Positions 6,166 to 45,750 of a stretch of 64,000 nucleotides of DNA are shown in pieces. Numbering within the stretch: position 1 is the first letter of the stretch; each line of letters opens with the position of its first letter. The DNA is from Tachypleus tridentatus (lineage: Eukaryota > Arthropoda > Merostomata > Xiphosura > Limulidae). A program made the translations under genes and the position numbers. The stretch spans positions 139,864,127 to 139,928,126 of the forward strand of contig NC_134833.1 in the NCBI RefSeq assembly GCF_004210375.1. Reading direction: 5' to 3'. The notes under the pieces are model-generated. The model did not search any database. It saw only the letters and a program-made list of their open reading frames with translations, and was not told the DNA's origin.

Positions 6166-6169
6166 TGTG

Positions 6170-6931
6170 AATTACAAAATGCTTTATGATCGATTATTAT
6201 AAAGTATCGTGTCACGTACTGCCAGAGTGATATTTTTATACTGTTAGTGTTAGTCAAACACATATTTTAAATGGAATCAGTAGTTAGTTACATGGATTTT
6301 TAAAGTATGAAAATGAACATTTCATAATAGAATAATAACCTATTTTTTATTTGACAGATTAGGTAAATTATATACAGTGCTGCCGCAAACCCTGTGTGAG
6401 TGAAACCTGTACCTGAAAATTGAAATTTCTTTTTATAATTCATATGCTCTTTCAAAGCCAGAAGTATCGGGAATATAATTATAAGGTTTTTTTGCGGCTT
6501 ATGCATAGCTTAGAGGTGACAACGAGCCGAGAATTTCTAAAAGTTTCATGATGGCTGCATTCCTATATAAATACATTTTTTCACTTTTCATGTGTTTTGT
6601 TTTTAAAGTAAATGTTCGTATTTGTGCTGCACAAAAACATGGGAAAGAACAAAAATGTTTTTTTTTTGTGATTTTGTTCTTATTGTACTTGATTTTCGTA
6701 ACGAATATATGAAGATAATTTCAGTTGTAGTTATTTGTGCACTCACAAATACTGTTTTCACATGCAAAGCAGTAACATCAGTCGCTAATTCTCTTTTTTG
6801 TTACTTTTGAAAATTTTCTGTGAAAATGTTATTTGCAATCAATCTGTATTTAATATATTACTAGATGCTTTTTAAAAACATCTTAATATTTAAAGTTTAA
6901 ACAAAAAATTCAACATTCTTCTCATTTTTTT
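6170..6931. other. unassigned DNA, possible first intron
   Basis: No exon or repeat identified. CpG dinucleotides are still present here up to about 6.78 kb and become scarce beyond. Confidence 0.3.
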
Positions 6932-7177
6932 CAAGGCCTGGTGGTTAGGGCACTCAGCTCTTAACCTATAGGTTGCATGTTTGAATCAATATTACTGAAC
7001 ATGCTTGCTCTTTCAGATGTGGTGATGTTATAATTGCCATTCCTGTTGTTCATTGGTAAAAGGAGTTACCCAAGAATTGATGGTGTTGAGTAGCTGGCTT
7101 CCCTCTAGTATATCACTGTTAAATTAGGAACAAGTAGCCCTGAGTAGTTTTGTGTGAAATTCAAAAGTAAACAAACA
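6932..7177 (+). repeat. SINE-A, old CpG-decayed copy
   Basis: Near full length, from AAGGCCTGGTGGTTAGGGC to the AAATTCAAAAGTAAACAAAC tail. Consensus CpGs have become TG or CA, for example TTCATTGG for TTCGTTGG and TTTGTGTG for TTTGTGCG. The B box is degraded. Confidence 0.75.
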
Positions 7178-10100
7178 TTTTTGCAAGATCATGTAAATAG
7201 GTGCAAAGTAATTGGCTACTGAATGTATAAATTTGGTCGAAAGAAACTATCTTTTGTATTCTCTGAAATTATAATTTCTCATCAGTTTTTATTCTCCTGA
7301 AACTTGAACTATCAATAACTTTCTTTAATATTTACTTTCAGCAAGAAACTTGTTCAGAACATGTCTTTCTTCATGTTATAAAGCATACTGTTTCTTACAT
7401 TTGTTTATTACTTATTATCAGTTTCATTACCTAGAGCATTAAGAGTGAAATAGTATGTATAGGACTCTTTATCACCATGTAAAGGATTGCTTTGTAGTTG
7501 TGTGCTGTTCATGGCTATTTGTACTCACAGTATGTGTATCCACATTCCACTGCATGATCTGACTAAATCATCCTGTTATCTCTGTTGCTGCTGGTTATGG
7601 TCCTATTAGCTTTGGCTTTATTTTGTTGTCTGGTACTTCACATCTATAATTGGTAGAAGTATGAATGTTATAAATTACAGTTTTTGCATGCTTTCATGTT
7701 CTTGCCTAATAAGTGAACCTAAGTTGTCTTCTGTTGGAGGAAAGTTTTCTATATATACCTTTTCTTGCCTGTGGCCTTTTCATTGTGTACTAAAGGAAGT
7801 ACACTCCATTTCACAGTATAGTGTATTGAGGGAAGTACACTTCAGTTTTCCTTGGATAAAACTGAAAGTAACTTAAATGTATAGATATGCACTTATCATT
7901 CATGAGCATCTAAACAAAATGTGACATGTGAATGGAGCACAAAGTGTTATCTAAGCCTCTAATATCAATTGATTTTTATGTCTTTCCATTCTTCAAATCA
8001 GAGGTATATTCAGGTCACACAATTCTTGTCGAGTAACATAGTATTGATGATAAGTGTTATGCCACAAGGATGCTATTCTTTAATGATAATGAACATCCTA
8101 CTATAATTTGAGAGAAGTTTGTTTCTCCTTCAACTTTTCATAGATTTTTATATTTGATAACAATATAGTTTAATCAGCTGGGAATGATTCAGAAGGAGCT
8201 ATTTATCTTTTATAATGTATATATTTCATAGCTCCAGTGATGGCTATATATATCAGTCTGTGGAGATGGCTACTAAGTGGTGCTGATTAAATTTTTTCAG
8301 TTTCTTCTCATCACATTGGGTATACACACAGTCTAGTATATGGACTTTCAATCATTACTGGCATATTTAGGATAAAAATGTAAAAAAACCTATATCTGTA
8401 ACTGGTGAACATTAATTCTTCATTTGCATTTTGTTTTCATTAAATGAGATGTTTTCAAGTTACATGTTACTTATTGCTTTTCAATAACAGAACTGAAATA
8501 TAAAATATAACTTTTATAAACCCCTTCCATGCAATTCACAGCTACTTCTGCTAGTAAATTAAATTCTCAAGTTGTAAAGCATAATTTATATAGCACTTAA
8601 TGCATTAATGAATATTTAATATGGCTTTATTTACATTTGAAAATTTGTGCCTAATATTGACATTGATTGTTATTTGAACCAGTTTGTTTCAGCAAATTTC
8701 ATCAGCCCCAGTTCTTTCTTCTTAATTGCTTAGTGTTAGCTTGTTAAATGGACATCTGAAATATTTGTAATTTAAACATTTCAATATGCTTTTAGTTTTA
8801 AAATTCCCTCAAAACAATGAGTGTTTTCACTACTGAGTTGGTCTCTTTCTCTGTCACATGTATGATTTAAAGTATAATAATCAAAATGTATCATTATGCA
8901 CTTACTGTAATTTGAGGTTATTTAACAAATATTTGTTCTACTTACCAATTAATATGAGCCATTTTTGGAAAACAAGAGATGATTTAATTTTTCAAGGTTA
9001 TTCTTGCACATCTATCACCCTGAGAAAAGAAAAGTAAACATTTAAACCAATCCTTAATTTCTCCAGATTTCATTAATTTAAGTCATAAATTCCTGTAAAG
9101 TGGTGGTCTCCACTACTGCTGATGGTAACTGGAGTTTAGCCTGTCCTTTCAAAATCAAGTTTGTCACCTCATCCTGTCAGAGTGTAGTATTAAACAAAAT
9201 TGGAAGTTTTTATGCCACTGATCACTTGGATAATCTTATAAGCTTCAGTAAGACCACTTCATATCCTTCTTTTATCAAGAGAATATCTATTCTTGCATGA
9301 TAACCCTTTCAGTCATGGAGTCATCTTAGTAGTGCTCTTACTGAATCCTCTCCAATAACTTAACCTTCTTTGTAAGATCAAAACTGTACTTGATATTTCA
9401 ATTTACATCCAAGGAATTAATGTATGTGATTCAAATAAGTTTCAATATTTTCCATGGAATACTCATGGTCAGATATATTGCTAATATATTCTCTTGTAAA
9501 AAATAGAAGAAAACATTTGACTATCTTGTAATTTTCAATAAAATCCTTACCACCAGTAAGAGTATAATCCACATTTTAACATTTTTATTACCTTTTCCAT
9601 ACCTACAAATATTGTTGCCATTATTTTAGCATTATGAATTGAAACTGATAAGCACTTCCAAATATTCTGTTTTTTGTGTTAAGTAAATCTAGCTTCAATA
9701 TAGTTTTGAAAATCTTCTTTATTTATCAGTTTAAACATACTAAACTTATAGAATTTAACTTAATTTTTTTCATTACGTTTTTACTAAAACAAGTCTTGTG
9801 ATCAATTCTGTTATCATTTAATGTTGGTTTTTTTTTTACATACATACACAACTTATAATTATTGAATTAAGAATTTGTGCTTTATGCCCTTAAAATTTGT
9901 TTTATAAAACTTTAGCAACTTAAACTTGTTTATTTTTATCTCAACATCTATAACAATATCAAACCTAATTATGCAATGAACACTCTTCTCCAAACATTTC
10001 CCAACTTCAACTGTTGCAACTTTATCCTAATTAGTTATTAAAATAATTTTGAGGTAAAGGAACAATTTTCAGAAAATAAAAGTTTAGAAATAGTTTGAAT

Positions 10101-10895
10101 GGATAGCGGGAGAAAATTCATTACAGATACCCACTTTATTTAGTGGTTAATATTCAGCTAAACTGACTCCTTTTCTTATTCAAAAACCCTTCTGAATCAC
10201 TTGAAAAGTCTTTCTCCTCTCACTGTTTGACTCCTTACATTCCCAATCACTGTGTTTCCCAGAGTGATTACATCACTGTTCTTATTAGTAACTATCATGG
10301 TCTTGTTATACAATTTCTTCTTGATGTCATATGTCTGATAAGTGGCATATAACATTTTCCATCCTTGAAACCCCTTATTTTAACCCATACAGGTTCAGTT
10401 TCATAACTACCATAATATTTATGGTTTAATTCCTAGCAAGGTGCAGTTTGTCTGCAGTATAAAAAGCCTCCCCTCACACACTCGCTTTAAAAATGCCTAT
10501 CATTATTAAATAGCTTATGACCTGAAATGTAAAATAATTTTAATTATTAGTGTGTTCTGTACCTAATAAAATGTTGGTAATTCCCATTATGTTGTATAAT
10601 AATACTTCTCTATTTTATTTAGAACCTGAACTCAACCATTTTGTTCTCAACAGTAGAATAACAACAAGTTAATTTATCTGCGTTGATCATTACAATTATT
10701 ATTTACTTTAAAATACTTTTCTGTTCTCCATGTTGCTATAGCTATCTCACCAGTTTGTTTATTTCTAGTTCTACGACCTCTGATCATTGCTCAAGTTTAG
10801 TGTAAATTATTTTTAATTAATATATATATATGTATTTACGTATATGACAGGTTTTGTGCTAAATTAGTGTAATTTTATCACGTTTTATATTTTAG
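7178..10895. other. long AT-rich stretch, probably intronic
   Basis: I find no recognisable gene or element. From about 8030 to 9774 I see no CpG dinucleotide at all. Short open frames (for example 7661-7876, 9100-9300) have no motif and look random. Confidence 0.35.
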
Positions 10896-10934
10896 TCTTA
10901 TTGTGAAATTATGATTTTAAACTTGTCAGAGAAG
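10896..10934 (+). CDS. candidate internal exon (unidentified gene)
   Basis: An acceptor (TATATTTTAG) and a donor (AAG|GTAAAT) bracket 39 nt open only in frame 0, reading SYCEIMILNLSEK. A 180-bp intron would join it in the same phase to the exon at 11115. The peptide is unidentified; the support is splice signals plus phase agreement. Confidence 0.3.
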
Positions 10935-11114
10935 GTAAATTATAAGAGAATGTGATATTTGATTTTTTAAAAGAAGAATGGATTATGTAGTTTATATATA
11001 AACATTATAGCATAAAAAATACTAGTAAACCAAATGTTTAAATTTTATATGATGACAGATGTCATGATAGGGCAAAGATTCATAGTGTTTTCTATACATA
11101 ATTTACTTTTTTAG

Positions 11115-11189
11115 GTAACACCAACTATAGAACTTGTTGGACTTGGTAAATTTTCAGTTGAACCAGAAAGAGATACAGGAATGAAATGA
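11115..11189 (+). CDS. candidate terminal exon (unidentified gene)
   Basis: After a pyrimidine-rich acceptor (TTTACTTTTTTAG) the frame reads VTPTIELVGLGKFSVEPERD then TGMK and a TGA stop. The amino-acid mix looks protein-like, unlike the leucine/phenylalanine/serine-rich noise elsewhere. No GT donor lies before the stop, so it would be a last exon, perhaps an alternative one relative to 16934-17071. Function unknown. Confidence 0.35.
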   Translation, partial: VTPTIELVGLGKFSVEPERDTGMK

Positions 11190-15790: not shown

Positions 15791-15958
15791 TTTTCCCCAC
15801 TTTTGATGCATTTTATTTGCATCACTGAAATGAGCTTATGATCATGTGTAGTGCTCATGTTGATGGAAAGACACACAGTATAATAATTGCATCATAAACT
15901 GATATACTGCATTTAGAAGTTGGACTTTCTTCAAGGTTTGTGGAATGTAGAGAAATTA

Positions 15959-22482: not shown

Positions 22483-22653
22483 TTAATGTGATGGTCAATC
22501 CCACTGTTCATTGGTAAAAGAGTAGCACAAGAGTTGGCAGTGGGTGTTCATGACTAGCTGCTTTCCCTCTTGTCTTACACTGCTAAATTAGGGATGGTTA
22601 GCACAGATAGCCCTCGTGTAGCTTTGCACAAAATTCAAAACAAGCAAACAAAC
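22483..22653 (+). repeat. SINE-A, 5'-truncated
   Basis: It starts at the body motif TGTGATGGTCAATCCCACTG and runs to the tail AATTCAAAACAAGCAAACAAAC. The tRNA-like head is missing. Confidence 0.85.
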
Positions 22654-23032
22654 ACATTTTTATTCAAGATTAAAGGTGTTTTTGCCCTTGTTCTTCAAAT
22701 GAGAAATTTTGGAAACAGTGATATTTCATTCACCTTTAGGCCTATTCTTGAAGTTACTATGAAAGTAAGAAGTTATTAAAGTGTACTTTCAAATTAAAGA
22801 AGATTAACTACTTGTATATATAAATATATACAATAGAATATTCTTTGTTTAGAGAATTTTGAGAGAAACTGAAATTAGTCTGTCAGCTTCAGGCTAGTAC
22901 AGAAGGGTCCAATTTTATAAAATGTCCAGAGTAAGTCTAGAGACTTATGTTTTAAATCAGGAGAATATATTTTTGTATGTTTACAATGGAGTATCTGTTG
23001 TTTGCTTATAATTGAATTTTATTTCACATCAA

Positions 23033-23296
23033 GGGTAGCATAGCTAGGTGGTTATGGTGCTTTACTTGTAACCTTAGGATCACAGGTTCGAATCCCCATC
23101 CATCCACAAATGCTCACCATTTCAACTATGAGGACATTATTATGTGATGGTCTATCCCACTATTCGTTGCTTAAAGAATACTCAAGAGATGGTAATAGGT
23201 AGTGATGACTAGCTGCCTTTTCTCTAGTCTTTCATTACTAAATTAGGGATGGCTAGTGCAGATGACCCTTATGTAGCTTTGTGTAATGTTCAAAAC
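23033..23296 (+). repeat. SINE-A, near full length, CpG-decayed
   Basis: The A box (TAGGTGGTTATGGTGC) and B box (GGTTCGAATCCCC) are both readable, with body and tail after them. Most family CpGs read TG or CA. Confidence 0.85.
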
Positions 23297-23613
23297 ATCT
23301 TATCAAGCCAATGTTTATTAATGAACTAGAATTTTCAAGAAATAATCACCACCAAAATTTTTGATGATTAATGGATTTATCTATCCCATTCTTGTGTAGT
23401 GTAAAAATGAATTTTAATGTGTTTGGAAATATAATTTTGGATTGAAAAATAGTTCATCTTAAGCATAATGTTCTTATTGAATTATCAAATGCTGACAATT
23501 AAATGAATTTTTCACTATCAACAAAGAAAAAATTGTTGCTGTTTTGCTTTTGATAATGGAAACTTAGTTGTGTAATATATGACTTCCACTTTACAAAATT
23601 GCACTAATACTTG

Positions 23614-25149: not shown

Positions 25150-26135
25150 CATACTTTAGGCCACAGGTGTGGGCAACCCATCAGGGGATTTATTAGCATT
25201 TATTTGCTGGTAAAATGAGCATTATATGGAGCAACTTTTGTTTCCTCCCTCTTTTTCCTGAGCCTATCAGTCATGGCCACATTGGTGAGGATCTCAACCA
25301 TTTGTTCCCTCTCACTTTGGGGTTTGCTGTGCCTTTCCACACTCTGAGGATTCTGTTTAACTCTCATTGGGTTTTTCAGATTTTATTTTTGAGGTATGTG
25401 ATGTTTTGTCTGTTGCTCTTATTTTTATCACTCAAGTTCTACCCTTTTACATGATTCTTCCTCCCAACCTTATTTAGTTCCCCCCATTCCCTGATATTGT
25501 GATTCACAATGAGTGATTTACTTCCCAGTTGGGTAATGGCATTAGTATGCCTCATTCCCTGTGGTCTTTAGATCACTTCTTTCTCTTATCATAGGACAGA
25601 CTGCCCTTATCCAAATGGTTAGGGGGGGCAGGTCCTGAATGTTACAGATGTCCTGTATTCCAATCTTCACCTTTACATATTGACTGGGTTGCAGTATCTC
25701 TCCTCAATCCATATTCTCACTTCTACGTTGGTTTTATCTGTCATCTTTGGCTCTGGCTCTACACACATGGTTTCTTTGTTCATGGGACCATTTGGGTCAT
25801 GATTCCATGTTGTCACAGACCTGTCTTTCAGCTCCTTAATCTATGAGACCTTTGTTTGGCCAGCTTTTAAGAGGTTATATGTTGGACAAGAGTCTAAAAT
25901 CTTTGGAGTCAAGAGTTGCCTTAGTTCAACAACAATCCACTCTTTCTTGTCTGGTGTCCAGTTTGTCACAGTTGGAGCTGAGTATGGCATCGATTCTTGT
26001 CTCCTGTCACTCCAATTCTCAGCCCTTTCCTGTTCTTTTTTACTGCAGTGCCATTGTTTGTTGATTTTCATGATGACACAAGGTATGCTAACTACAGTTC
26101 CAATGACTACCTGATGGGAGCTTATTCAATAGCCT

Positions 26136-27100
26136 TTGCTCATTGGTGGTGATCTTTCATATCTGACATTTGGGTTCATAAAGTTTTGTTTGAAAGTTTC
26201 ATCATCCCATTTCTTACTTCTCATTCCTTTCCAGTATGCCTCTTTCCTTTCCTCCTATTCAAGATCCCCTGTCTCATCAATGATTTTCCAAAACAGTACA
26301 AGATCACTTCATACAACAGGCTGTTAAATCTGTCCCACACAGTTTGGGGACATTTACTCCTGCAAAACAAGACTGGGAACTGGAGGCTGCTCATCGACCT
26401 GCCCCCTCTCAATCAGTACATTCATACCCCACGATTCACCATATAATCCTACCTTACATTTTGGTAAGCTGTTTCTCCAAGTTTAGGGTGATTATCTGCA
26501 CATTTACATATCAGAGCATACTTGTTCTTACCTTTGTTTTCTTTTCATTGTGTGGTGCTGTAGCAATTTTGGGCTTTACCCTTCAGGCTGGCTTTGGCAC
26601 TGTATATCGTTTGTCAGGTGATGTGAACCTTTTGTCTACATCTTCATGTCCTGTGGTTGTGCTTTCACTTCTACATGGCTTCTTCTTGCTCATTTCAAAC
26701 AGGAGTTGGCTTGCTGTACTTATCAGTTCCTTCTTGAAGCTGCTTGGGTGGGCTGGTTAATAAAATTGGAGAATACTTTCCTTTATCCTATGCAGTACCT
26801 CTTTCATTTGGGTGGTTTCTTCAATATCTGTCTCAGTCAGGCCCAACATTATTCTCTTTGTCTTTGTTTAATGGAACTGACCATTCGGAATGTCCTGTCT
26901 GTTTTTTTACTTTCTGCTTGGGTGGGCTGATTAATAAAATTGGAGAATACTTTCCTTTATCCTATGCAGTACCTCTTTCATTTGGGTGGTTTCTTCAATA
27001 TCTGTCTCAGTCAGGCCCAACATTATTCTCTTTGTCTTTGTTTAATGGAACTGACCATTCGGAATGTCCTGTCTGTTTTTTTACTTTCTGTTCATGAGGT
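26136..27100 (+). pseudogene. DIRS-like reverse transcriptase remnant
   Basis: A fingers motif TGNWRLLIDLPPLNQYIHTP (about 26367-26430) fits the DIRS K-x-GGWRPVIDLxxLN signature. Further on, TWLLLAHFKQELACCTYQFL followed by AWVGWLI (about 26661-26760) fits the segment around the YLDDWLL catalytic motif and the following helix up to GWLIN. The catalytic YLDD itself is lost (S-T-W). A 174-bp in-place duplication (26741-27088) repeats the region after the active site. Multiple frames are needed, so it is non-functional. Confidence 0.8.
26741..27088 (+). repeat. 174-bp tandem duplication inside the RT
   Basis: Two copies, from TGCTTGGGTGGGCTG at 26741 and again at 26915, almost identical over 174 bp (GGTTAATAAAA versus GATTAATAAAA near the start). 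A length of 174 is divisible by 3, so one reading frame passes through both copies. Confidence 0.95.
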
Positions 27101-27750
27101 TCTGTTGCTTTTGGGAAGGTGATCTTCAATGACTTCTCTCATACCGCTTCGTTGGGCTCATATGCATGTATCCTTCATGACCAGTGAAACCTTTCTCGAG
27201 ATCCTTTAAATTCTCTCATCACCCTTCCTTCATACACTATTTTATGATCTATGATGGTGGTTGGATAAGGCTTATACTTCTGTAGATGTCCCATTTTCTC
27301 CTCAGTGCCCAGATTTATATCTTTTCACAGATGCATCCCTTCAGGTCTGGGTTGCGTGGATTGACCTACAAGTGGCTTTGAATCATTGGTCTGTGGAGGA
27401 ATGTTTTCTTCGTACTGATATCCTCTAACTTCTTGCTATTTATTAAGCTTTGAATCATTTTCTTCCTGTCTTAACGGATCAGCTGGTCATGATCCACTCT
27501 GACAGTTCAAAAGTAGTTATACATGTCAGTTGCCAAGGAGGCACCTGCTTGAGATCCCTGTGTTTTTCACCTTGAATCTTCTCTTTTAGGCCAAGTCATC
27601 ACATTCATTTAATGTCATGCCATGCAGCAGGTGCTTTCAACCTTGTGGCAGATCACATCTCCTAACCACATCAGGTTTACCTGATAGAGTGGTTTCTTCA
27701 TCCCCTTGTTTTTCAATGGCTTTGTGATTAGTGGGATGCTCCTCATATTG
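27101..27750 (+). pseudogene. DIRS-like RNase H remnant
   Basis: PDLYLFTDASLQVWVAW (about 27308-27360) contains the first catalytic D of RNase H (T-D-A-S). It is followed by NHWSVEE, LNHFLPVLTDQLVMIHSDSS (about 27448-27510, catalytic D in HSD) and SCQGGTCLRSLC. Next come HAAGAFNLVADHIS and a IEWFLHPLVF stretch, typical of the DIRS RNase H end (N-x-V-A-D-x-L-S-R). Stops replace several residues, including the expected E in the ILEL-type motif. It is inactive. Confidence 0.82.
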
Positions 27751-28029
27751 TGTACTTGCCACTTCTCTCAATCACTAATTACTTTATTTTGGCCCCCTGT
27801 TCCCCATCCTTAAGTTTTTACTATAGATGCCTTCAGTCAGAATTGGTCAAACAAATTCTTTTATGTTTGTCTTCCTATCCATTTACTTCATTGGGTAGTT
27901 TTCCTCATCCATACCACTCTGTGCAAAGTCCTTCTGGTTACTCCTTACTGGCCTGCTCAACCATGGTTTCTTGCAATGCAGTTGTTCTCTCCTGTCCCTC
28001 TCCCCTCATTTGTGACCTCCTTTGTTAAC

Positions 28030-29070
28030 AACAGTCATCAGTCTTCATCCCGCATTTCATGCCTGGCTTTTTGTCCAGTCCTTGGTGAGGAGATCCAGTT
28101 CCTCACATCAAGTGGCATTTCATTTAGCTCATTCAATTCATCCATGACTGTGTATCAGTGGAAATGGAATGTTTTTTGCACCTGGGCCCTGGCTTGGGGG
28201 TCTAGCTTCTCATCCAGTGGATACTGGTGTCCCTGAGTTTCTTTAAGGGCTTTTTGAGAAGGGATATTTGGTCTCCTTAATATATGGGTATTGGGCAGCT
28301 CTATCCCATACTTTCCATTTTTTCTTGTTGCTGCAGGGTCTTTCTTTCTCCTGTTCTTTCTCTTTTGATATATTCTTTCTGGATATGTTAGCTTCCTAGG
28401 CATCCAGTACTTTCCTATTGAAACATTAATGTTATATTTTATTCCCTAACTTTACCTATATATGAGTCCATTTCCTTGTTTTCTTTGTTTTATCCATCCC
28501 TTAAGGCATATTTCCTTCTCCTTTTGGCTTGCAGGCAGCATTAGTCAGATATATTTCCTACTGATGTCACTCATACACTGTACCACCCAACATATCTTCT
28601 CCTATATAACGAACTTTCTTTCTTTCCGAAGACCTTGGTGGCTTGTGAAGGTAACTCTCCATTTCACCCATTTCCCTTCGTTGCATTTTTCATTTCTATT
28701 CTTGTGTGAATTCAGATAGATTTGTATGCCCGGTTTGTGCCCTTCATTGTTATATTGCATGTAAAGTTTCTTTCAGGGGTTTCCATTCCCATCTGTTTAT
28801 CCTCTCAGAATCTTTCTCCTTCACCCTTACCAGTTGGGTTCATCATTTAATCCAGTTGGCTCATTCCTCTTTGTCCCCATCCCAACATACATATTCCATG
28901 TTACCTCCTATCAAATCTGTCACCTCACCTTTTCCCTTGCTTCTTGTCTTGATTGGCTTTTGGAAGAAACTCTTTAGTTGGACATGTAGACCACTTCTCA
29001 AATGTTCATATCCCAGTATCTCCATCACATTGCAATTTATGCATCCTTGGGGTATCACCTACCACATGTA
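28030..29070 (+). pseudogene. DIRS-like tyrosine recombinase remnant
   Basis: STMTVYQWKWNVFCTW (about 28139-28187) fits the core-binding domain start (S-T-x-x-x-Y-x-x-x-W-x-x-F-x-x-W). Later, RFVCPVCALHCYIACKVSFR (about 28720-28780) followed by HLFILSES and SWVHHLIQLAH (about 28830-28865) fits the catalytic-domain stretch DRLLCPVRALxxYL...LF. The conserved R-H-x-x-R and tyrosine motifs are not intact. It follows the RNase H in the expected order. Confidence 0.72.
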
Positions 29071-29963
29071 ACTGTACTTCAGACTTCAGTGTGGCAATGA
29101 CACTATGTAAGTCTTTGTTAATGATTTCTTTTCTTTCAAAGACCCTTGCTTTGAATTTCATTTATTTGATCCTGCTCTGTGGCAAGTGGTGTCTGACCAG
29201 GTATTCTTTCTACATGAATCTGCATGTTGATTTGCATGCTCTTTCGATGGTTCTTCTTACTCATCTTTCAGATGGGATGTTTCATGAGATCATTGGAGGG
29301 TCAATAACCTCATGATATATGCTTCATAAATTGGTTCCTCCCAAACTATGGCATACCACCTATAAATGGCATGGGTAAAGCAGAAAAGGATAGTTGCACA
29401 TCCTTGCCATGCCTTGATTGAATAAATCGGTATGATCTGATTTTTAGAATAGGGTTTTATGATCACCCATTGCACTGTCTCAGGTGTAGCAGTCCCTCTG
29501 AATCCTCCAATGCTCTTCTTTCCCCCTTTCTTCTAGTGAAGTATGGAAGCCCTTAACACTTATCAGTTCTGAGCTGCTGGGGTGGTTGACTATAGAAGCA
29601 TCTTGCTGGATGGGTTCTGCAAAAATGACTATAACCATTCAGTTCAGAATATGGCAGTAGTGTTTTGCTAGTCTAGAAGGTGTACTATCCTCTGGATTTA
29701 ATGATACATATGATAGAGTGAGAAGCCTTGATGCAGTTTACCCTTTTCATTGGGTGCCCTAATCCTATCCTTGTATGGATGTCAGTACCCCATGGGCTAG
29801 TTTTGGATATTGAGTGAACCAATCAACATAAGTCCTCACACATGTTTGAGGTTATCCATTCTCCTCTCTCAATTCTGTATTGTTGGTCATGGATGGTGTA
29901 GGTGAGTTGTTTCAGTCCCTATCCTGGAAATACATTTTTTACTTTAGGAAAATCATAACTTTG

Positions 29964-30298
29964 AAAACAGTAGGATTCTGGTTAATAAAAATTAAATAGT
30001 AAAGTAATTCACATGGCTGGAATAAATGGTATGCAATTATTATTCATATAAGTGTTATTAATTTAATAGTAATAATTCAATAATTTCTTCAAATGGTGAA
30101 TTTAACAATTTTTTACACACTTTCAATATGGGTTTTTTCAAGTGAATTTCATACAGTTATAGGCAAGCATACCTGTATATATCAGTTAGAATTATAACAT
30201 TTTAAAGGATTTATATGTATGTTGCATTTTAATACACGTAAATTAAAAAAACAGTTGGGATTTGTTTTGTGCTTTGGTACTTGGTCTTTTAGAATTTA
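29964..30298. other. unassigned AT-rich DNA
   Basis: Nothing recognised. Confidence 0.35.
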
Positions 30299-30572
30299 GG
30301 CCCAGCATAGCCAGGTGAATGAGGCACTCAGTTCATAATCCAAGGGTCGCAGGTTTGAATCCCCATCACACCAAACATACTCACTTTTTCAGCCATGGGA
30401 GCATTATAATGTGATGGTCAATCCAATTATTCATTGGTAAAAGAGTAGCCCAAGAGTTGACAGTTGGTGGTGATGACTAGTTGCCTTCCCTCTAGTCTTA
30501 CACTGCTAAATTAGGGACGGCTAGCACAGATAGCCCTCGTGTAGCTTTGTGTGAAATTCAAAACAAACCAAA
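30299..30572 (+). repeat. SINE-A, full length, with TSD
   Basis: A complete copy from CCCAGCATAGCCAGG to the AAATTCAAAACAAAC tail. It is flanked by CTTTTAGAATTTA (30286-30298) and CTTTTAGAACTTA (30573-30585), a 13-bp duplication with one change. Family CpGs are partly lost. Confidence 0.92.
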
Positions 30573-30585
30573 CTTTTAGAACTTA

Positions 30586-33438: not shown

Positions 33439-34623
33439 ATGTTATCACTTTTTCTCAACAAAGTGCTCATCAACAGGTTTCTTTGTACTAGTACTACAGT
33501 TGTTGGAGTTACTTTGAGCATTCTTAGTGGCATCTGGTTGAGTTTCGTAAAGGAAAAAGCCAGTATACACTATAAATTCTTGAATTATTGTTTCCAGCAC
33601 AAACACAAAGTAACTCTTTTCTCTCCCATTGGTGATATCTATCATCACTTAATATCAAGGAGGGGGTCACTCTCAGTTGAGACTGTCAGTGGTTTTATTC
33701 ATAGTGAGATGGAAACATATATTTGGTTCAGTGGTATTCCTTTAGGAAAACTTGAGGCTGCAATTGCAAATTATTGTGTACATTCTGGAGAGAATTTTGA
33801 TTAGTTTTATCCAACACCTTTATTTACTTTGTTAGTTTCTCACTCCATGTAGGATAGTGTAAACTTATGTCAATGCTGAAGTCTGGGATTTGTTCTCCTA
33901 TTGGGGAAACAGCAGTTAACCCAATGTTATTTTGTTCTAACACTAAACTTATCTTACAATATGTTTTTCTTAACAACTGTTATCACAAGTGCCTTTACAA
34001 GACATAAGAAAGAATGCCACTTTAGAATCAGCTGCTTCTGAGTTGTTTTCTTCTGTTGATACATTGACATGATGTTTTGGGTCTTTTTTTCTCCAGTGGC
34101 TTTTAAGCCTGAATTGACTTGACTGTAAGGTTTGGTCATGAATATTTAGTTCTATCACCATCTATAGATGATGTAGTTCATGCAAGGATGTTTACTGCTC
34201 AGTTACGAGACAAAACAGCTAGGCTTTAACCATCAAGGTTGTTGGAACTATATGATCTAGCTTACCATCACCACCACCACCAGGTTGGCATACATTTCAA
34301 CTAAAGTACTACATCTACTCCTCAAAATTAGAAATTATAAAATATAGTTAGTAGTTTACCTGAATAGATCAATGTCCCATGGTTGTACAGAGGTATCTCT
34401 GTAGATCTACAACTGTAACATAGAGCATATTTTTTTCTGAGTACTAATCTTTGTTGGCAGATTCTCAGGGTCTCAAACTTCATATACGGAGGAGCTGGAA
34501 CCATTGTTAGCATGCTCATTGGTTCAGTTGTGGGCTTCTACATTTACCCCTGTTGTTGTTGGCACCTGGCCATAGTTTCACCCCTTTTCAAGGGTCCTAG
34601 CCTCCAACATCAACTCCTTGTTA

Positions 34624-36246
34624 CAGTTACGACAGAAAGTGTTCATACCCCTGCATTGTGAATAGTTTTTCCTCATAACTTAGAAAGTATCATGATTAGG
34701 ATAATGAAAGTAAAGTATATTATAAATATTATACTAACACATATCTACATAAATTTTTATGTAAATTGAACGACAAATAAAATGCTTATAAACAAATAAC
34801 CAAACATAGGAGGGGCAGAAAGTGTTTGTGCATCTACTTTAATGGTCAGTTGTGTAGCCTTTCAGGTGAATTACTTGAAGCAATCTCTCCACATAGCCGT
34901 CCATGATCATTTAACAGTACTAGACTGGTATTTTCTTCCATTCTTCTTTACAGAAGGCCTTCAACTCTTGCAAGTTTTTCGAATGAAGCTGATGAACCCA
35001 GGTCTTCAACTCATGCCAAATGTTTTCAATTGGGTTGAGATCAGGTGACTGCGATGGCCACTCCAGAACGCTTATATGGTTCCTCTGCAACCAGGATTGC
35101 ACATATTTCGATCTGTGCTTAGGGTCATTGTTGTGCTGGAAGATCCAACGCTGCAAATGCCACAAGTTTTGAGCATCATTCTTGATATAAGTGCCTAATA
35201 TATCAGCGTACTCTTCTTTTTTCATGATTTTGTTAACGTGGTGAAGGCTGCCTACACCAGAAGAGCTGAAGGAACCCTATAACATGATCGAGCCACCTCC
35301 GTGTTTAACTGTAGGGACGGTGTTCTTTGGAAGATTTCGTTTTCCCTTCTTACGGAAAATATTGCGAACATCATTGTAGCCGAAAAGCTCGATTTTTTCT
35401 CGTCTGACCAAAAAATACTCTTCCAATAGGTAAAGGGTTTATCTACATGCTTTCTTGCATACCTAAATCATGCTTCTAAATGAACAGGCTTTAAATATGG
35501 AGCTCTACGAGGACGGCATGCTTTAAATCCAGAAGAGCGTAGCATGTTTGTAACTAAGGAGGTGCTTATTTCAACCCCAGTTTCCCTTGCCAGTTTCTGT
35601 ATGTCATTACGTGTTAAACGAGGGTTCCTGCTAACTTCTCTGAGAACCTACCTCTTGGTTCTGTCTGTAATTTTGGTGGGGTGTCCGGAACGAGGGAGGT
35701 TAGCAGTTGATTTTGTAAGCTTAAACTTGGCAATTATGCTTTGAACAGTAGATTTTGGTACATTACGTCGTGTAGCAATACTAGAAAGAGACACATGAGA
35801 CTTGTATTTTACAATAATTCAGTTTCTTAAATCACTGGGCAGTAGTTTCCTGTTTGCCATGATGACCAAGCAGATAATGACGGAGACAGCGCTAAATTGC
35901 CGGAAGTAAATTTTTTGATGGCTAAATTCGAATAATTATGAACCAAGTGTCTAGTTCTGGAATGGTATAAGTAGTTTATTTGCCAAACTAAACAAAATTT
36001 TTATTGGAATATCAGTTTTTTCATAAGTTCCTGAACTGTGCAAACACTTTCTGCTCCTCCTATTTTTGGTTATTTGTTTATAGACAGTTTATTTGTCGTT
36101 TAATTTACATAAAAAAATATGTAGATGTGTGTTAGTATAATATTTATAATATAATGTACGTCTATTAGCCTAATCGTGATATATTTTAAGTTATGAGCAA
36201 AAAACTACTCAGGACGCAGGGGTACGAACACTTTCTGTCGTAACTG
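34624..36246 (-). mobile_element. Tc1-like transposon with IR/DR ends, nested in DIRS copy C
   Basis: A 1623-bp element between TA dinucleotides (34622-34623, 36247-36248). The ends begin CAGTTACGACAGAAAGTGTT on both sides. The inverted repeats run about 210 bp. Each has an inner copy of the AGAAAGTGTT motif (34808-34833 and 36037-36069), so there are two transposase-binding direct repeats per end, the IR/DR layout known from Sleeping-Beauty-type elements. CpGs are frequent, in contrast to the surrounding DNA, implying a later insertion. Confidence 0.95.
34920..35860 (-). pseudogene. Tc1-like transposase pseudogene
   Basis: An ATG at 35860 opens MANRKLLPSDLRN, then a stop, then the paired helix-turn-helix DNA-binding region. 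The catalytic domain follows, with WSDEK (D codon 35402-35404) and SQSPDLNPIENIW (E codon 35025-35027), spacing as in DD34E Tc1 enzymes. The second aspartate, normally in FQQDNDPKH, reads FQHNNDPKH (N codon 35130-35132). There are several stops, and a frameshift in the A-run just after WSDEK (about 35393-35398). Length (about 313 codons) is close to the family's usual 340. The protein is inactive, yet the breaks are few, as for a fairly recent copy. Confidence 0.93.
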
Positions 36247-36310
36247 TATATGGGTACCCAGAATAGATTCTGTTCATTTCCATGGGTCTGTAGGGGGCCT
36301 AGTTCTGAGA

Positions 36311-38100
36311 ATGTTTGGACACAAGGTAACTATATCCTTGGATCCATGGGCATTACAAGTCCCTGAATTGGGATTAGTGCTGCAGTTCACACCTTCAACA
36401 TCACTATCCTCCCATCCTGTAGGGTTTCTTTCTTCCCCAGATCTATGGATTAATGAATATAAATCTATAGCTATCAGAGTTTTCCTGGTCTAGGGGCAGA
36501 TAAAGTGTCATGCTAGTTTTTATGAGGTTTTATTCCTCTCAACTGCTGAGTCTAGGATATAGGAGATTGGTGTCAGCCATCTATTTTTCTCATCTGTATC
36601 AATGCCTAGATTCTTCACAGTTCACAAGTGATTCATTCCTAAATCTGAGTTGGCTTTTTCTTTAGATCTGTGAATGTCAAAGTTGCATCTAGTCATGGTG
36701 AAGGTCAGGTACTGCAGTTTAGAGTTCTTACCTTTTGACTAGCTTTGTCACCGCATAGGTTCTGGCAATTCATATGAGCTTTTTCGTGTCACCTCTATTC
36801 CATAGCCTTGTGCAAACACCATTCAGTGGATGGCTGGTTACTGCTGTCACCATCTTATCAAGTGTCTGAATATCACACCCAGATTTTACTTTCAGAACAA
36901 CCAATTCAGCCTTTATATTCAGTGTTGAAACATCTATTCTTGTTACAATGCAATATGTAATCAGTCTGGATATATTTTTTCCATCACATATTTTAGCCTG
37001 GTTTTACACTATAGAACAGGAGGCCTGTCTCTTACTCCTGTCTCCTTTTCCCATGACACATATCATTTTTTTCTTTTTTGGGAATGTGGGCATCACTCCA
37101 GTCCCACACTCCTTTGAGATGAATGCACAAGAGATCCTTTCATTGTGCTTTACGTGACCAAATGATCATCAATATTGATTCACTAGGTTCTACAGTTTCC
37201 ATAATGAGGATCTGCTTTGATCTTGATGGGTGGTTAAGTCAAGACAGTACTAAGATATCAGTTCCTCTGCCATCATCTTGTCAAAGATCATAGATTTATG
37301 AACCACTTACTTCAGAGATGGAGTATGTATCTCAACAGTCAGCAATTTCACAGTCTATGCATGGACATTAAGGCTTACATAAACAATGTTTCAGTCATTC
37401 TTACTTTTCAGGCAATGATGCCTCATAGTCTTGACTTACTAAGGAATAATCTTCAGTCTTCACATTGACAATTTCACAGTGACATCTTGCTTAGTCCAGG
37501 GCCTCTTGTTTTAAAATCTTGAATTTTTTTATCAGGACCATTTTCATCATGTTGTCCTATTAGTTTGCCATGTTCTATAGGTGATGACTGCACTAGGAGA
37601 TCATTTGTCTCAACTCAGCTAGATTTTCCCAACAGAATAGATGTTGCAGTGCTAGATTTTTTGTTGGATTGGCTCTCATTTTGAAACACTGATTGATTGG
37701 TTTACCACTCATAGGAACACCCAACCACTGACAATTTGGTCTTCAATACTTTACCTTTTGGTTTTGGTAGTGGATGCATTCTGTGAAGATGGGATGGGAT
37801 TACCACTCTACATATTCCTTATAATTCACATGTTATCCAAGGTACTAACATTGATTCATCATTGGTTACATTGACAAGGTGGGTACGACATTGTTCCATA
37901 TTCTTATTCTGGGCTCTCTTTGAAGGTTAAGAATCTTTTAAGTGTTATGTATAATCAAATTCATCACATTTCTATTTCTTTAGTAGCCCAGTTGTATTTT
38001 TCACTGGAGGACACTGTGTGGGCTGGTATGGGAACTCCCCTCAATACCTTTATCTCACATTATTTGCATTATCTGGCAGTATCGTTATATGAAGGTGTTT
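36311..38100 (+). pseudogene. DIRS-like RT and RNase H remnant (copy C)
   Basis: The sequence starts with GHKVTISLDPWALQV...GLVLQF (36314-36390), the conserved region before DIRS RT (SDPWVLxxVxxGxxLxF). Around 36510-36580, DIGDWCQPSI then AYFHSS-like remnants fit the first catalytic region. FRVLTF then DGWLLLSPSYQV (about 36720-36860) fit FxxLPFG and the YLDDWLL motif, the latter degraded to SVDGW. HIDNFTVTSCLVQG (about 37460-37500) and THRNTQPLTIWSSILYLLVL (about 37705-37760) fit the RNase H and post-RNase H stretches. Many stops; not functional. Confidence 0.75.
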
Positions 38101-39456
38101 GACTACCACCTGTAGCTGGCTTTACCACTTCCACTAGATTATACAAAGTGGTGAATATTTTCATTGCTGTGTGTGTCTCTTCGTTACCTTTCACTTTCTT
38201 TACTTCATTTTCACAGGATCCCACTTTATGATGAATATTTCCCAGGCAGGTGTGCTTTACCTAACCAATTCCACATTAAAAATCACTATTTCACTATACT
38301 TACTACTGGTTGCAAAAGGCTCTGTAGAAATGAAGTGTTCGTAGGAGATCACAAGGTGGTATTACCATAATATGCTGGACTGCCACTCATGGGTAAAGAT
38401 AAAGGGGATTCTGTCAGTCCTTATCAATAATCAGATTAAATAAAATTGGGTTTGGTTTGCTTTTAAAAATTTAGGGAACTTGGTTCACCTTTACACTGTT
38501 CCTCAGGGCTCCTCAACACATGTTATCCTCTTGATTCTACTAGTGAAACTAGGAAGTTCTTAGTTAGTACACGCAGTTTCCAGTCATTAGGGTGGTGGAC
38601 AGAGGCTTTCCCTCCTAGAATGTTAGAGTAAATTCCTCCACTCTTGAAGAAGAGGGTTTAGTATGGGACTCTCCTAATCCAGTTGCTGGATGTTCTTTCT
38701 CAAATGTTAGTAGTAGTGGCAACAGTCTACATGGGAGTCTACTAGTAATACCAATTCAGATTTGACACTCGGCTCGCCAGTTGGAGCATGTATGGCTATT
38801 CTTTTTGATCAATATCAGTCCAAAATATTGTTCATGGAAAGGGGTCCAATATTTCCTTATAATTTCATTTCTGGAGTGATCCTGTCCTGGTTCCTTGATT
38901 GAGCACATCCTCCTCATAATTCTGGGGGCAAGTGGAAGGCTCCTTTCCCATTTGGTTGGGGAAATAAGGACAAATGTTCATAATTCCAGAGCAGATGAGT
39001 TCTCTTCCTTTGATTGAGTAAGGCATACGTGATCCTATCATTTCAAGATATTTTTGGTGGAGGAGAGAGTTTGTCCACTTTGATGTCATGATTCTAGTGA
39101 TTTGGAATGCATCACTCTGTAGATTCTGGTTAGAATCCAGTCAAAATTGTATCTGTATATATGATTACAGCCCAATTTCTCTAGTCATCAATATGGGGTA
39201 TGGGGACCAAAACCCCATAATTCCAGCCCTAAGTATTGGAACTTCAACTGTTTGGCCTATAATGATGATCACACATGTACAATTCCACCCTTGATACAGG
39301 AGCTAAATTTAGGGTGAAGAGCATACCTTTTCTGGATGTTGTGTGTTATCCTCACTGACTTTCCAATCTTCTACTGGTACATTCATGATCTATGCAGGTG
39401 CTTTCTGTATGTATAATGTCCTTGCACAGCCCTCCATCTTATCAATTGTGTTTTGG
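38101..39456 (+). other. 3' part of DIRS copy C, not resolved
   Basis: CpG-poor, T/C-biased sequence like the rest of the element. I could not match it to recombinase motifs. Confidence 0.4.
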
Positions 39457-39587
39457 AAGTTAACATTTTCTTAAATTGAAAATGTATTTCCAGTAATACC
39501 TCTGCTGACACTCTTCTGCTCTTCCTTCCCCATACGAGCTGGTATTAGAAACTGGGATTGAGTGTCTTGAAAAGGAATAAAATTATC

Positions 39588-39802
39588 TTAATGAAGTACT
39601 TCTACACAGTACCAGGATAGAGGGCACATTGATGTAGGTGGAGAGTATACCGAGACAAGTATTTCTAAGGGCAGTTGAGTGAGGTGTAAAAGACTGGAAC
39701 AACCAAAGAAAAATCAAACGAGTGCTTAAATGGGCAAAGGAAGAAACCCTGGAGGTTGAGTAACAGGTGTAAGTGTCAGAGTAGGCAAATATTATTGGAA
39801 AT
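39588..39802 (-). repeat. right inverted terminal repeat of DIRS copy C
   Basis: Reverse complement of the left arm (33222-33438) with perhaps one in five bases changed by eye. Just outside it, 39790-39834 is itself an inverted copy of 39457-39500. Confidence 0.9.
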
Positions 39803-39984
39803 AGATTTTTCAATTTAAGAAAATGATAACTTTGATTACTAGGCCGACTTCTACTGTTTATTATTATTATTAAGAGTAGGCTACTTCTATTACAATTTTC
39901 CAGAACATCTGAATTTAAACTAGTGAGCCTTTCTTAAAGGCTTTTATTTTCCAATTGGTATTAGTGTAGTATCATTGCAAGTGT

Positions 39985-39985
39985 A

Positions 39986-40014
<29 letters not shown>
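39985..40014. repeat. (TA)n microsatellite
   Basis: About 30 bp of uninterrupted TA. Confidence 0.97.
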
Positions 40015-40017
<3 letters not shown>

Positions 40018-40109
40018 TTCACTGATCAGACCAAACATAATGTAGTATTAATAGTGCTATAATGTGAGTCTAAGAATCCATTGTTCTTGTTCCATTGTTT
40101 CAAAACCAC

Positions 40110-40205
40110 TTTCCACATTTTGGGGCTGTGAGTATACTATAAGAGTGATGGTGGTCAACTCATACTATTCAATTAGAGTCATCCAAAAGTTTGCCATTGA
40201 TATCT
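40110..40205 (+). repeat. SINE-A-related variant fragment
   Basis: CATTTTGGGGCTGTGAGTATACTATAAGAGTGATGGT and ATTCAATTAGAGTCATCCAAAAG match the variant seen at 42846; both ends are missing. Confidence 0.55.
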
Positions 40206-42845
40206 AAAATGGAACAGTTTCAAAGATTTTTGCAACTTTGTTACAAAGCTATTTCATTTGAAAATTATATGTTTACCAAGTCCAGAGCTGTATAAACAGA
40301 CAACGTTTATTTTGAAAACACTCATCTAACCCTGACCACAGCAGAAACAACAACATAGAGAAGTGCCACAACCAGAATGCACTATTGCAGTCTTCCTCCA
40401 GCCCCTTCACACCAGACCTATGATGCTAATCAAATTATTCCTCTTCAGGCAAGTCTGGCAACATAAATCATAGAAGCAGAAAGTCTATGGGCGATGAATG
40501 TCGCAGTAAGGTCTTTTCATTTGATAAATGTGATGATGTTAGTCACTCACCAATAGGTTTAGAAAATGAAACATTAACAAAGTTGTCATATGTTTTTTTG
40601 TGTTTGGATAGCCCAGAACCCTCTGCTAAAGAAATTGGAGTATGTCCTTAAAGAAAAAGTAGTTATTGATGATGCCATATTGAATGGTAAGACCACCACT
40701 GATCAAGATGAAAAGCAATTTAATGTGCTTATTAGAAACTGGTCAGAAACACGAAATCAGATTATTGGGGGATATCTTGTATCTTTCTATTTGGTCATAC
40801 CAAAGTAAAGTATGCATAAAAAATTGTGCCTTTGCTAAAAAAGATAAATAACTATTCTTATGAGGCTCTTTATAAGATTATTAAGTAACTTGGTAAGAGA
40901 CCAATTATGCCCTGGATGAAGCTGACTTTGAGGGTCTTCTCTTATTCATTCCTTCATGCCATACTTAATACATTCAGAGCTAGCCTAGATGCATCCAGAA
41001 AACCTTATCCACGACCTCCACATGTTTTTTTTTAAATATATCCTGCCAAATATAATATTTCCAATGACAATGAACTGGAGATGTGAATAACATTTGGGTG
41101 ACATTGGTACCAGCTCTGGATTGTATCAGTTAAAAATGATATATCAGAAAGAAATATTTCCTGACATCACTCAGGAAAGACCATGAAGGGGATAAACAGT
41201 CTTCCAAAAAATAAACATTCTGCCAGAACACCTGTTCTGTTCATGAGAACAGAAATAAGAGATTGCCATGTGAAAACGTCGCTGATGATTGTCTCTAAAC
41301 TTCATCAATCACAATAACTATTATGTTGTCAACATACCCTTTATCTGCCATAATTTTGAGACAGCTGCCTTATATTGTCCATATATTTGTTTCATTATAT
41401 TTCTTATTTCATGCCTGGAATTGAATGGAATGCCTGCAGTCACTTTTGGAATCCATGCTGATCTTTCTAAAGAAATTATCATTATACAATTAGGATGGAC
41501 TTCTCAGCTGTAACTAATAATGTTTTATAAAATATCAAAGGTATATTTATTTTGACCATAATTTTATCTCCACGTAGGATCTATTTATATGTTCATACCG
41601 AGGGTGCATTTATAACTGAATTATTTTTTCTGTGAAATTACCTTAGTTACTTCCATAAATAACACAGACCCTGAGCTAACCATAAACAATTGTCTTATAT
41701 GGTTTTACTCTCACAGTATATAGTAGCACAGTTTCTTCTTAAAATACCATTACTATCATCTGTATTTCCAGCGATTAAGAATATCTTATTCCTGCATCAG
41801 AACTTAAACATTCTGAAGGTTATTCTCAATATATAATTTGATGTAATCTTAAGCCTGAAACATGACTGTGTGTTCAGTATGTAAATATTGTTTGAGTATC
41901 TTAAAAAGCAACTGTTTAATTTGAAATTTGCATTATTCTAATTTTCAAATACTATAAATAACTAAATTTATATTTTCAGCTAATATTTATTTTGTAATAA
42001 ATCAGAAGCTGTTATTTTTTTTTATTTTGAACTTAAACAAGGCCTTCTTTGACCTAAATCATGGTAAAAGTTATATTGGATAATAACAAAATTTGCATAA
42101 TAAAAGGTTTCACAAAAGGTTTGTGAAGATCCTAAACTCCAAACCTAAGTGTCACAAGAATTAAAATGAATGTACTACAAATTACAGTTACGTGTCACAA
42201 CACTTTATTTAAGCAATCTCACTTCATAATGCTGAAATGGTTATTACTCTACAATTTGATCTTGAAAAATATAATTTGTCATTTCTAATTATCAGTATTT
42301 AGGTCATTTGGGTGCACCAAGGTGGGTCAGTTACAATCTTGACCTCTTCAGTACACTGAATATTTAAGGCATTTTTAATTACAGATGTGTTAGAGTCATT
42401 TTCCCACTGAAATTGACAGAATATTTGAACCTAGTGTTGAACCTCAGAATGAACTTCTCTTTGATCAAAACCTACTTTGCTACTAGTTATGATGCTGGAT
42501 CTCAGAATGAACTTCTCTTTGACCAAAACCGTACAATTAGTTAACACTACAACTATCTTAACTTTATCTTAGTATTAATAACACTAGTTGATTTACACCT
42601 ACAGTTTTTCATTAGATGTTTGTATAGCTATTTTTTATGTGATTGAGAAATTATTGTTTGGCAACTTATATTTATAACTCAATAAAATCTCAATGGTTAT
42701 GTTTATTTCTTTTAGTAAAAAAAGTTACTGTATAATTACTATACAAGAACATGGTATTTTTAAAAATGTGTTGTGTTTATAGTGTTTTTAACTTGTCACA
42801 GTAAATCTATATTTATGTAGAACTTGAAGACTGAATTCTTCTTCA
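40206..42845. other. unassigned AT-rich, CpG-poor DNA
   Basis: An open frame at 40590-40808 contains a plausible-looking stretch (NPLLKKLEYVLKEKVVIDDA) after a TTGGATAG acceptor-like site. Neighbouring frames are full of stops and I cannot tie it to a family; it may be a decayed transposon gene. A 28-bp direct repeat (CTCAGAATGAACTTCTCTTTGA...) occurs at about 42443 and 42499. Confidence 0.3.
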
Positions 42846-43134
42846 GACGTGCTGGTTAACACAATAGTTAACATGTCAGACTGTAGGTGTGAGGTTCTGT
42901 TGTTCACGTCTCGTTACTTATAAAAACAAAATCATGCTTAGTTCATTAGAGCCTGGCTCTGAGTACATTATAAGAGTGATGTTCAAATTCTACTAAAGAA
43001 TTAGAGCAGGCCATGAATTAGTGGTGGGTGTTGTTAACTAGTTGCCTTCCCTCTAGTCTAACACTTCAAAATAAAGAATGGCTGGTACAGATAACCCCAG
43101 AGTAGCTGCGTGTAAAATTCAACAAAACAAACAA
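42846..43134 (+). repeat. SINE-A-related variant, near full length
   Basis: The head GTGCTGGTTAACACAATAGTTAA is followed by a degraded B box, then GAGTACATTATAAGAGTGATGTTCAAATTCTACTA. From GTTGCCTTCCCTCTAGTCTA it joins the normal SINE-A 3' half and ends in AATTCAACAAAACAAACAAAG. CpGs are lost. Confidence 0.75.
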
Positions 43135-43842
43135 AGACACTTTTAAAATACTAAAACTAAATATCATGGCCTTTCCACCATCTAGTTGACCACTTGTCTT
43201 GAGTTAAAACCAATATAACTGTGATAACAAGAAGTAAACTGGTTGATAGATTGGGTATCATATTTAAAAAAATGAGTTATTAGATTTGGACACTTAAAAA
43301 TGTTTATATTTTATATGGTTGTTCCTTTGTTTTCTCACTTCATGTCTGATATTTATTATTTGTAAGAATATTTTTTGCACACACTATCTGAATATTTAAA
43401 TCTGTTTATCTAGTTATCATGATGTATTGACAAAGAAAATACTGATGTTTTTAAACTATGTTTGTGAAATTATTTCTGTGTACTTGAATAATAAAATTTT
43501 CAGCAGGACTGGTCTCATAAAGATTGCTTGTTAACTAATCTGTTATTTATTAAAGTATAAGTTGATAATTTCTAGAGTATCCAGAAATTTAAATTAAACT
43601 TCCTTTGTAAAAATGACAAAAGTTAAATTTTTTTTTTCTTGTTTAGTGTCCTAGGTACTTCTTTCACAAGTTTGAGCTGTAAACTTTAGAAAGACGACCT
43701 GTTTTTATTAGTACAGTTTTCATCAAATGATGACGTCATAATACATATTTTACTTTTTTAACTCCAGGTGAAAGAACTGTTATCAACCTTTTTTATTTCC
43801 ACAAACAGTAACTTACTTAAACTTATTAAACTAAAGAAAAAA
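43135..43842. other. unassigned AT-rich DNA
   Basis: Nothing recognised. Confidence 0.35.
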
Positions 43843-44690
43843 GTATTGTATTATTGGTATTAGATGATTTCAAATAAACACAATTTAGTTTTTACAGGTG
43901 TTTATTGTAATACAAACAATAAAAGTTCTTCAGAAGTTAAAAGACTCAGGTATCATATTATTGGTATTACATGATTTCAAACAAACACAATTTAGTAGAT
44001 AACAGGTGTTTACTGTAATATGAACAATAAAAGTTCTTCAGAAGTTAAAAGACTCAGGTATTGTATTATTGGTATTACATGATTTCAAACAAACAATTTA
44101 ATAGATAACAGGTGTTTACTGTAATATGAACAATAAAAGTTCTTCAGAAGCTAAAAGACTCAGGTATTGTATTATTGGTATTACATGATTTCAAACAAAC
44201 AATTTAATAGATAACAGGTGTTTACTGTAATATGAACAATAAAAGTTCTTCAGAAGCTAAAAGACTCAGGTATTGTATTATTGGTATTACATGATTTCAA
44301 ACAAACAATTTAATAGATAACAGGTGTTTACTGTAATATGAACAATAAAAGTTCTTCAAAGCTAAAAGACTCAGGTATTGTATTATTGTATTACATGATT
44401 TCAAACAAACAATTTAATAGATAACAGGTGTTTACTGTACAATAAAAGTTCTTCAGAAGTTAAAAGACTCAGGTATTGTATTATTGGTATTACATGATTT
44501 CAAACAAACACAATTTAATAGATAACAGGTGTTTACTGTAATATGAACAATAAAAGTTCTTCAGAAGTTAAAAGACTCAGGTATCATATTATTGGTATTA
44601 CATGATTTCAAACAAACAATTTAATAGATAACAGGTGTTTACTGTAATACAAACAATAAAAGTTCTTCAGAAGCTAAAAGACTTAGGTTT
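43843..44690. repeat. tandem repeat, about 106 bp x 8
   Basis: Units contain GTATTATTGGTATTACATGATTTCAAACAAAC, AACAGGTGTTTACTGTAATA and AACAATAAAAGTTCTTCAGAAG. The marker AAAAGACTCAGG recurs at 43939, 44047, 44153, 44259, 44364, 44462, 44570 and (as AAAAGACTTAGG) 44676. One unit (44364-44462) has a 10-bp deletion; the first unit is the most diverged. Confidence 0.96.
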
Positions 44691-45013
44691 GGTCCATTTG
44701 TATCAGTTCTTCAATTTTGTGTAAGAAATTACTATTTTTGAAAATAGGAACTACGTTTTCAACATACATTTTGCAGTTGGAATTTCGTGTATTTGATTCA
44801 AGAAATTCTGCTGAGAGTAATAAAAGTAAACGATGGTATTGTACTTTTTTATCTGTCATAATTTATGTAAGGTTAGTGAATAACAGAAGTAAAGTCGTGA
44901 TGATAGTTGACAATCTTAACTTAAACGTTCATTGTCAAATTTCAGAATCGTGTGACATACTAAGACCAAACAGTTTGCAATTTTGAATTTGTAAAAATAT
45001 TAATACCCGTTGT
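44691..45013. other. right edge of the CpG-poor domain
   Basis: CpGs reappear here (for example near 44752, 44785, 44832 and 44896). No gene recognised; an 89-codon open frame (44717-44986) has no motif. Confidence 0.35.
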
Positions 45014-45729: not shown

Positions 45730-45750
45730 ATATTTTGGGTTAAGGGTCGA

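Follow-up and report, generated by a model that had tools for sequence, protein, structure and literature searches.

What does a 38-kb tract of DNA that has lost most of its CpG dinucleotides mark in the genome of a horseshoe crab? The question is raised by a window of 64,000 nucleotides from Tachypleus tridentatus (assembly GCF_004210375.1, contig NC_134833.1, positions 139,864,127 to 139,928,126 of the forward strand), the whole of which was analysed here. Judging from sequence features, the CpG-poor block is probably the methylated body of a plus-strand transcription unit that would start at about 6.1-6.2 kb and end in the tandem array at about 43.9-44.7 kb. The original prediction, made by eye, was that CpG is very rare from about 6.8 to 44.7 kb, absent from 8030 to 9774, and common before 6.5 kb and past 44.7 kb. 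All of this was borne out by calculation. The observed/expected (o/e) CpG ratio is 0.73 over positions 1-6500, 0.15 over 6800-44700 and 0.93 over 44700-64000, a profile that is stepped at both edges and not flat, and no CpG-free run of the window is longer than that at 8030-9776. Over the same three stretches the GpC o/e ratio is 1.08, 0.91 and 0.91, and TG/CA is raised in the block (1.27 vs 1.18 and 1.08 in the flanks). The block thus combines CpG depletion, TG/CA gain and normal GpC in the manner of an invertebrate gene-body methylation domain.

The extent of the block was determined by segmenting the surrounding 264 kb into two states, with rates set after viewing the profile. It returned CpG-poor DNA at 6785-35051 and 36244-44753, separated by a normal segment at 35052-36243. 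This sole interruption falls inside a transposon:

6785..44753, plus strand: CpG-poor domain, putative body of a plus-strand transcription unit (two-state segmentation and o/e profile).
34622..36248, minus strand: Tc1-type transposon with 208-bp terminal inverted repeats, o/e 0.68 (Pfam and inverted ends).

The frames of the Tc1 element match the Pfam families HTH_Tnp_Tc3_2 and DDE_3. At its left end the element shares 93-95% identity with the copies listed elsewhere, so it is a younger insertion, not strongly CpG-depleted. When it is left out, the block holds 121 CpGs in 36.3 kb, an o/e of 0.12. The 264 kb contain two more CpG-poor blocks (positions outside the window being counted from its start). 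The first spans about -84 to -59 kb and repeats the left part of the locus in a second assembled copy; the other begins at 146.6 kb.

The cause of the CpG loss was addressed with an interspersed repeat, which by eye we take to be of the short interspersed element (SINE) type. Its copies across the 264 kb served as an internal control, with 22 CpG sites scored and matches of 120 bases or fewer dropped ahead of the count. The eight copies in CpG-poor blocks kept CpG at 7/80 sites and read TG or CA at 60/80, whereas the 60 copies outside kept CpG at 719/1025 and read TG or CA at 234/1025. Three of the eight in-block copies are the same insertions in the second assembled copy, and two of the 60 outside copies are duplicates too; counting just the five copies of the window gives 5/52 kept, against the same 719/1025 outside. 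Divergence at non-CpG positions is 0.135 in the blocks and 0.091 outside. The window copies are as follows:

6998..7177, unstranded: SINE-like copy, CpG kept at 0/9 sites.
22484..22654, unstranded: SINE-like copy, CpG kept at 1/8 sites.
23104..23297, unstranded: SINE-like copy, CpG kept at 1/11 sites.
30332..30571, unstranded: SINE-like copy with 5.9% non-CpG divergence, CpG kept at 3/18 sites, 15/18 TG or CA.
43003..43135, unstranded: SINE-like copy, CpG kept at 0/6 sites.

Age does not explain the loss, since even the copy at 30332-30571, with its low divergence, reads TG or CA at most of its CpG sites. As copies lose CpG in the blocks and keep most of it outside, position is the cause rather than sequence type or age, and such position dependence is that of a gene-body methylation domain.

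A second line of evidence came from assembled copies of the locus. Positions 1-24691 of the window recur at -90.6 to -59.9 kb on the same contig, C9, and positions 1-15146 recur on contig C1 at 76.17-76.19 Mb (C1:76172421-76190245), both with about 96-99% identity; the C1 homology reaches further upstream, at least as far as -93.5 kb on the C9 contig. Since the C9 copy ends, the window begins and the C1 copy ends each at a 500-N assembly gap, the three near-identical copies are likelier to be redundant contigs of one locus. Given these gaps, a true tandem duplication at -90.6 to -59.9 kb is the less likely reading. Between the window and the C9 copy, transitions affect 7/106 CpG bases in the block and 2/314 outside (Fisher p 0.0013), and non-CpG transitions affect 45/16,874 bases in the block and 7/6,081 outside. 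Relative to the non-CpG rate, the CpG transition rate is thus about 25-fold in the block and about 5-fold outside. This suggests that CpG loss may still be ongoing in the block, on the basis of few events and of copies that are possibly not alleles.

A search of the genome with PF00145 gave two matches only, a DNMT1 exon and a DNMT2 exon; at this sensitivity it brought up no DNMT3. The repeat-copy comparison, the TG/CA excess, the CpG transitions between assembled copies and the DNMT1 exon together make germline CpG methylation followed by deamination a well-supported candidate for the cause of CpG loss, as had been predicted.

The limits of the block were then compared with signals of transcription. 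A putative promoter had been placed at 6.05 kb, near the left edge, and a motif scan found a promoter-like cluster at that place; the right edge lies 65 bp past a tandem array:

6067..6156, plus strand: promoter-like cluster with an NRF1-type, two cyclic-AMP-response-element (CRE)-type and one ETS-type motif (motif scan).
43843..44688, plus strand: tandem array of eight 106-bp units, putative 3' end region, with the densest plus-strand AATAAA run in the 264 kb (9 in 850 bp).

The cluster sits 0.6-0.7 kb left of the block edge and, with its own second assembled copy, is the richest of its kind in the 264 kb, for a motif set picked after reading the sequence. Across the surrounding 6000-6500, the three assembled copies show zero substitutions in 497 aligned columns; the C1 copy has small gaps and is 98% identical over 5980-6800. 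Mean AT skew is -0.124 in CpG-poor blocks (12 windows of 4 kb), a T excess on the plus strand, versus -0.005 in normal DNA (42 windows). A plus-strand CCT gene is likewise T-rich, and the two minus-strand DNMT loci are A-rich on the plus strand.

This CCT gene, one among several with PF00118 matches, lies on C13 and carries five such matches. Its o/e is 0.05-0.29; the 2 kb just ahead of it stand at 0.63 and 0.85, and the DNA further left is also low, at 0.22-0.49. Ahead of its CpG-poor block stands a single CRE- and ETS-type motif, with no cluster like that at 6067-6156. From the promoter-like cluster, the plus-strand T excess, the AATAAA-rich array at the right end and the occurrence of the CCT gene in a similar block, we infer a plus-strand transcription unit from about 6.1 to 44.7 kb. 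Transcription of such a unit in germ cells or early embryos would draw CpG methylation over its whole body, not over exons alone, and DNMT1 would maintain this methylation. Deamination of methylcytosine would then erase CpGs over long times, leaving TG and CA, and the unmethylated promoter and transcription end would set the block edges.

Other loci of the genome show which DNA shares this depletion. The DNMT1 and DNMT2 loci have CpG o/e ratios of 0.29 and 0.07, and four coagulogen-family loci range from 0.78 to 1.39. Exons of the coagulin family gave 19 genome matches, and one 49-residue exon translation is identical over 48 aligned residues to coagulogen PDB 1aoc, a protein from Tachypleus tridentatus, which marks this 2.17-Gb genome as that of a Tachypleus-type horseshoe crab. 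Along 9 kb of C1 that include a GYF-domain gene the CpG o/e ratio is uneven, at 0.0-0.67.

Several observations weigh against a transcription unit filling the block, and the first of them concern its coding content. Pfam searches with 337 of the 341 stop-to-stop open reading frames (ORFs) of at least 40 amino acids between 5.6 and 45.3 kb gave nothing significant except Tc1; the other four ORFs are two inside Tc1 and two at 36.2-36.9 kb. In match lists limited to 25 out of 33 families for one scan and 25 out of 27 for another, the best non-Tc1 scores were those of DUF5732 (0.00036) and IBR_1 (0.0012), values for which about 0.1 and 0.4 matches are expected by chance in 337 scans. Ten ORFs scanned singly gave no match below E 0.02. 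Six read-through plus-strand frames from outside 21-30 kb, with stops as X, found no match at E <=1 in a PDB sequence search.

An exon finder based on splice and codon tables was also applied; it cannot detect first, last, very short or non-coding exons. As a control, all five CCT exons with Pfam matches are among its seven top candidates in the CCT gene (scores 10-21), and the best score on the other strand of that gene is 9.4. On other stretches it recovered exons that Pfam names as GYF, TSP1_ADAMTS and glutamate-cysteine ligase. Outside Tc1 the block gave three borderline candidates, two of which are on the minus strand, opposing a plus-strand gene.

All of these candidates were set aside. 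The plus-strand candidate at 40449-40505 scores 10.3 or 8.4 depending on the background and is isolated, though not disproved; its neighbour at 40612-40741 (7.8 and 9.1) was dropped too, and the sequence from about 40623 onward is found again elsewhere. The minus-strand candidates at 36393-36484 (9.5 to 11.7), whose DNA recurs on C8, and at 12967-13058 (8.7, and 12.9 in the second copy), which is strongly T-rich, are likewise isolated and not disproved. The search of the block gave no convincing coding exon, just isolated borderline candidates on both strands. Scanning the window for Rfam families and for tRNAs gave no match.

The remaining points against the unit concern its strand and its edges. 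Part of the T excess is supplied by old interspersed repeats. Among the old repeats of the block are:

25200..30200, unstranded: old interspersed repeat with strong plus-strand T and C excess, AT skew about -0.28 (long genome matches of about 65-75% identity, 40 of 3400 candidates scored).
36513..39841, unstranded: old interspersed repeat (long matches elsewhere of about 64-80% identity, 40 of 7750 candidates scored).

The minus strand of another tandem array, at about 50.0 kb, is equally AATAAA-rich where there is no CpG edge, so tandem arrays can produce a dense AATAAA run by chance. CpG-normal DNA also surrounds a glutamate-cysteine-ligase-type exon at -44.4 kb. The third CpG-poor block has its left edge at 146.6 kb, with ADAMTS-type exons on both sides of this edge, at 145.4 and 147.5 kb. 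These exon candidates extend along the plus strand from 115.6 to 151.6 kb, and those up to 145.6 kb are in CpG-normal DNA, those from 147.5 kb on in the CpG-poor block. Five of them were put to Pfam: TSP1_ADAMTS was matched at 145.4, 147.5 and 149.8 kb, TSP_1 weakly at 115.6 kb, and both DUF2703 and ADAMTS_CR_3 weakly at 134.5 kb. They would form one gene with an internal domain edge, although the 130.6-kb near-repeat of the 145.4-kb exon leaves room for two tandem ADAMTS-type genes meeting at the edge. Because the 146.6-kb edge falls among these exons, CpG edges and gene ends need not coincide. The proposal that the block marks a transcription unit thus has the support of the motif cluster, the T skew, the AATAAA array and the CCT parallel, but it has gained no convincing coding exon, and the block edges need not be those of a gene.

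A rival idea is that the block is methylated with no unit of its own, being either a domain of methylated old transposons or an internal part, such as the first intron, of a longer gene. The several old repeats in the block, the failure to find convincing coding exons and the ADAMTS-type exons, CpG-poor toward the 3' side alone, would all suit it. We nevertheless consider it unlikely: SINE-like copies outside the blocks are far less depleted, so that this repeat is not enough by itself to attract methylation, the two ends are marked by a promoter-like cluster and an AATAAA-rich array, and the block is followed by about 100 kb of CpG-normal DNA. A fossil scar, left by a driving gene now dead or by methylation since lost, would fit a block in which no intact coding exons were seen, but it is improbable in view of the excess of CpG transitions between near-identical assembled copies (7 events) and the unchanged 497 columns at 6000-6500, gaps in the C1 copy notwithstanding. 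That CpG is low for compositional reasons, or that the block is merely older than its surroundings, is hardly credible. The slightly lower GC content of the block (0.33 vs 0.36 around) would suit it, but GpC is normal, TG/CA is raised and the repeat-copy comparison, with its little-diverged copy, contradicts it.

The methylated body of a plus-strand unit remains the preferred reading, and the unit could yield either a long non-coding RNA or a protein that is small or evolves fast and whose gene has very long introns. We would entertain, as a tentative possibility, that the 38 kb are an essentially non-coding, broadly or germline-expressed unit with whole-domain body methylation in which no exon is coding. 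If this were true, methylation in the horseshoe-crab lineage would follow transcription itself and not exons, and the roles of transcription and of exon targeting in driving arthropod body methylation would be told apart.

The block most likely represents a new example of the known gene-body methylation, ordinary for this animal group, its unusual side being the lack of a convincing coding exon. It resembles the mosaic methylation of arthropods and other invertebrates in that CpG-poor domains stand on a CpG-normal background, with one carried by the CCT gene and none by the coagulogen-family exons. In the spider Stegodyphus, one report describes exons and introns as about equally methylated and transposons within genes as like their host gene (PMC6409797), a pattern that would fit a scar covering the whole domain, repeats included. 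The same source reports all DNMTs and evidence of exon methylation in Limulus polyphemus (PMC6409797), a species that is also listed in a genome-wide arthropod methylation survey (PMC7343188). CpG o/e distributions are a standard proxy for methylated genes (PMC8821070); the statistic and logic are the same as here, but they are applied there to coding sequences and here to raw genomic sequence with introns and repeats. Our literature search found no paper on DNA methylation or bisulfite sequencing in Tachypleus, or on germline CpG methylation in horseshoe crabs. CpG depletion read from raw sequence can outline domains of probable germline transcription in a horseshoe crab with no need of RNA data, even where coding signals fail, and the embedded repeat copies provide an age-controlled internal check on methylation as the cause, which could be extended to the whole genome.

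Some further repeats were noted in and around the block. Decayed mariner-like and Tc1-like transposase remnants were recognised by eye left of the promoter-like cluster, at 5000-5700 and 3100-4000; a Pfam scan of 5175-5306 in this region gave no match. The CpG-normal right flank holds tandem arrays of 58-bp and 59-bp units, at 48798-49235 and 49990-50545. Within the block, a 46-bp tandem repeat has 9 copies at 19747-20161 and forms a several-kb array in the second assembled copy (C9:139793389-139799567); all 77 exact matches listed for a 23-base probe of this repeat fall in these two places on C9.

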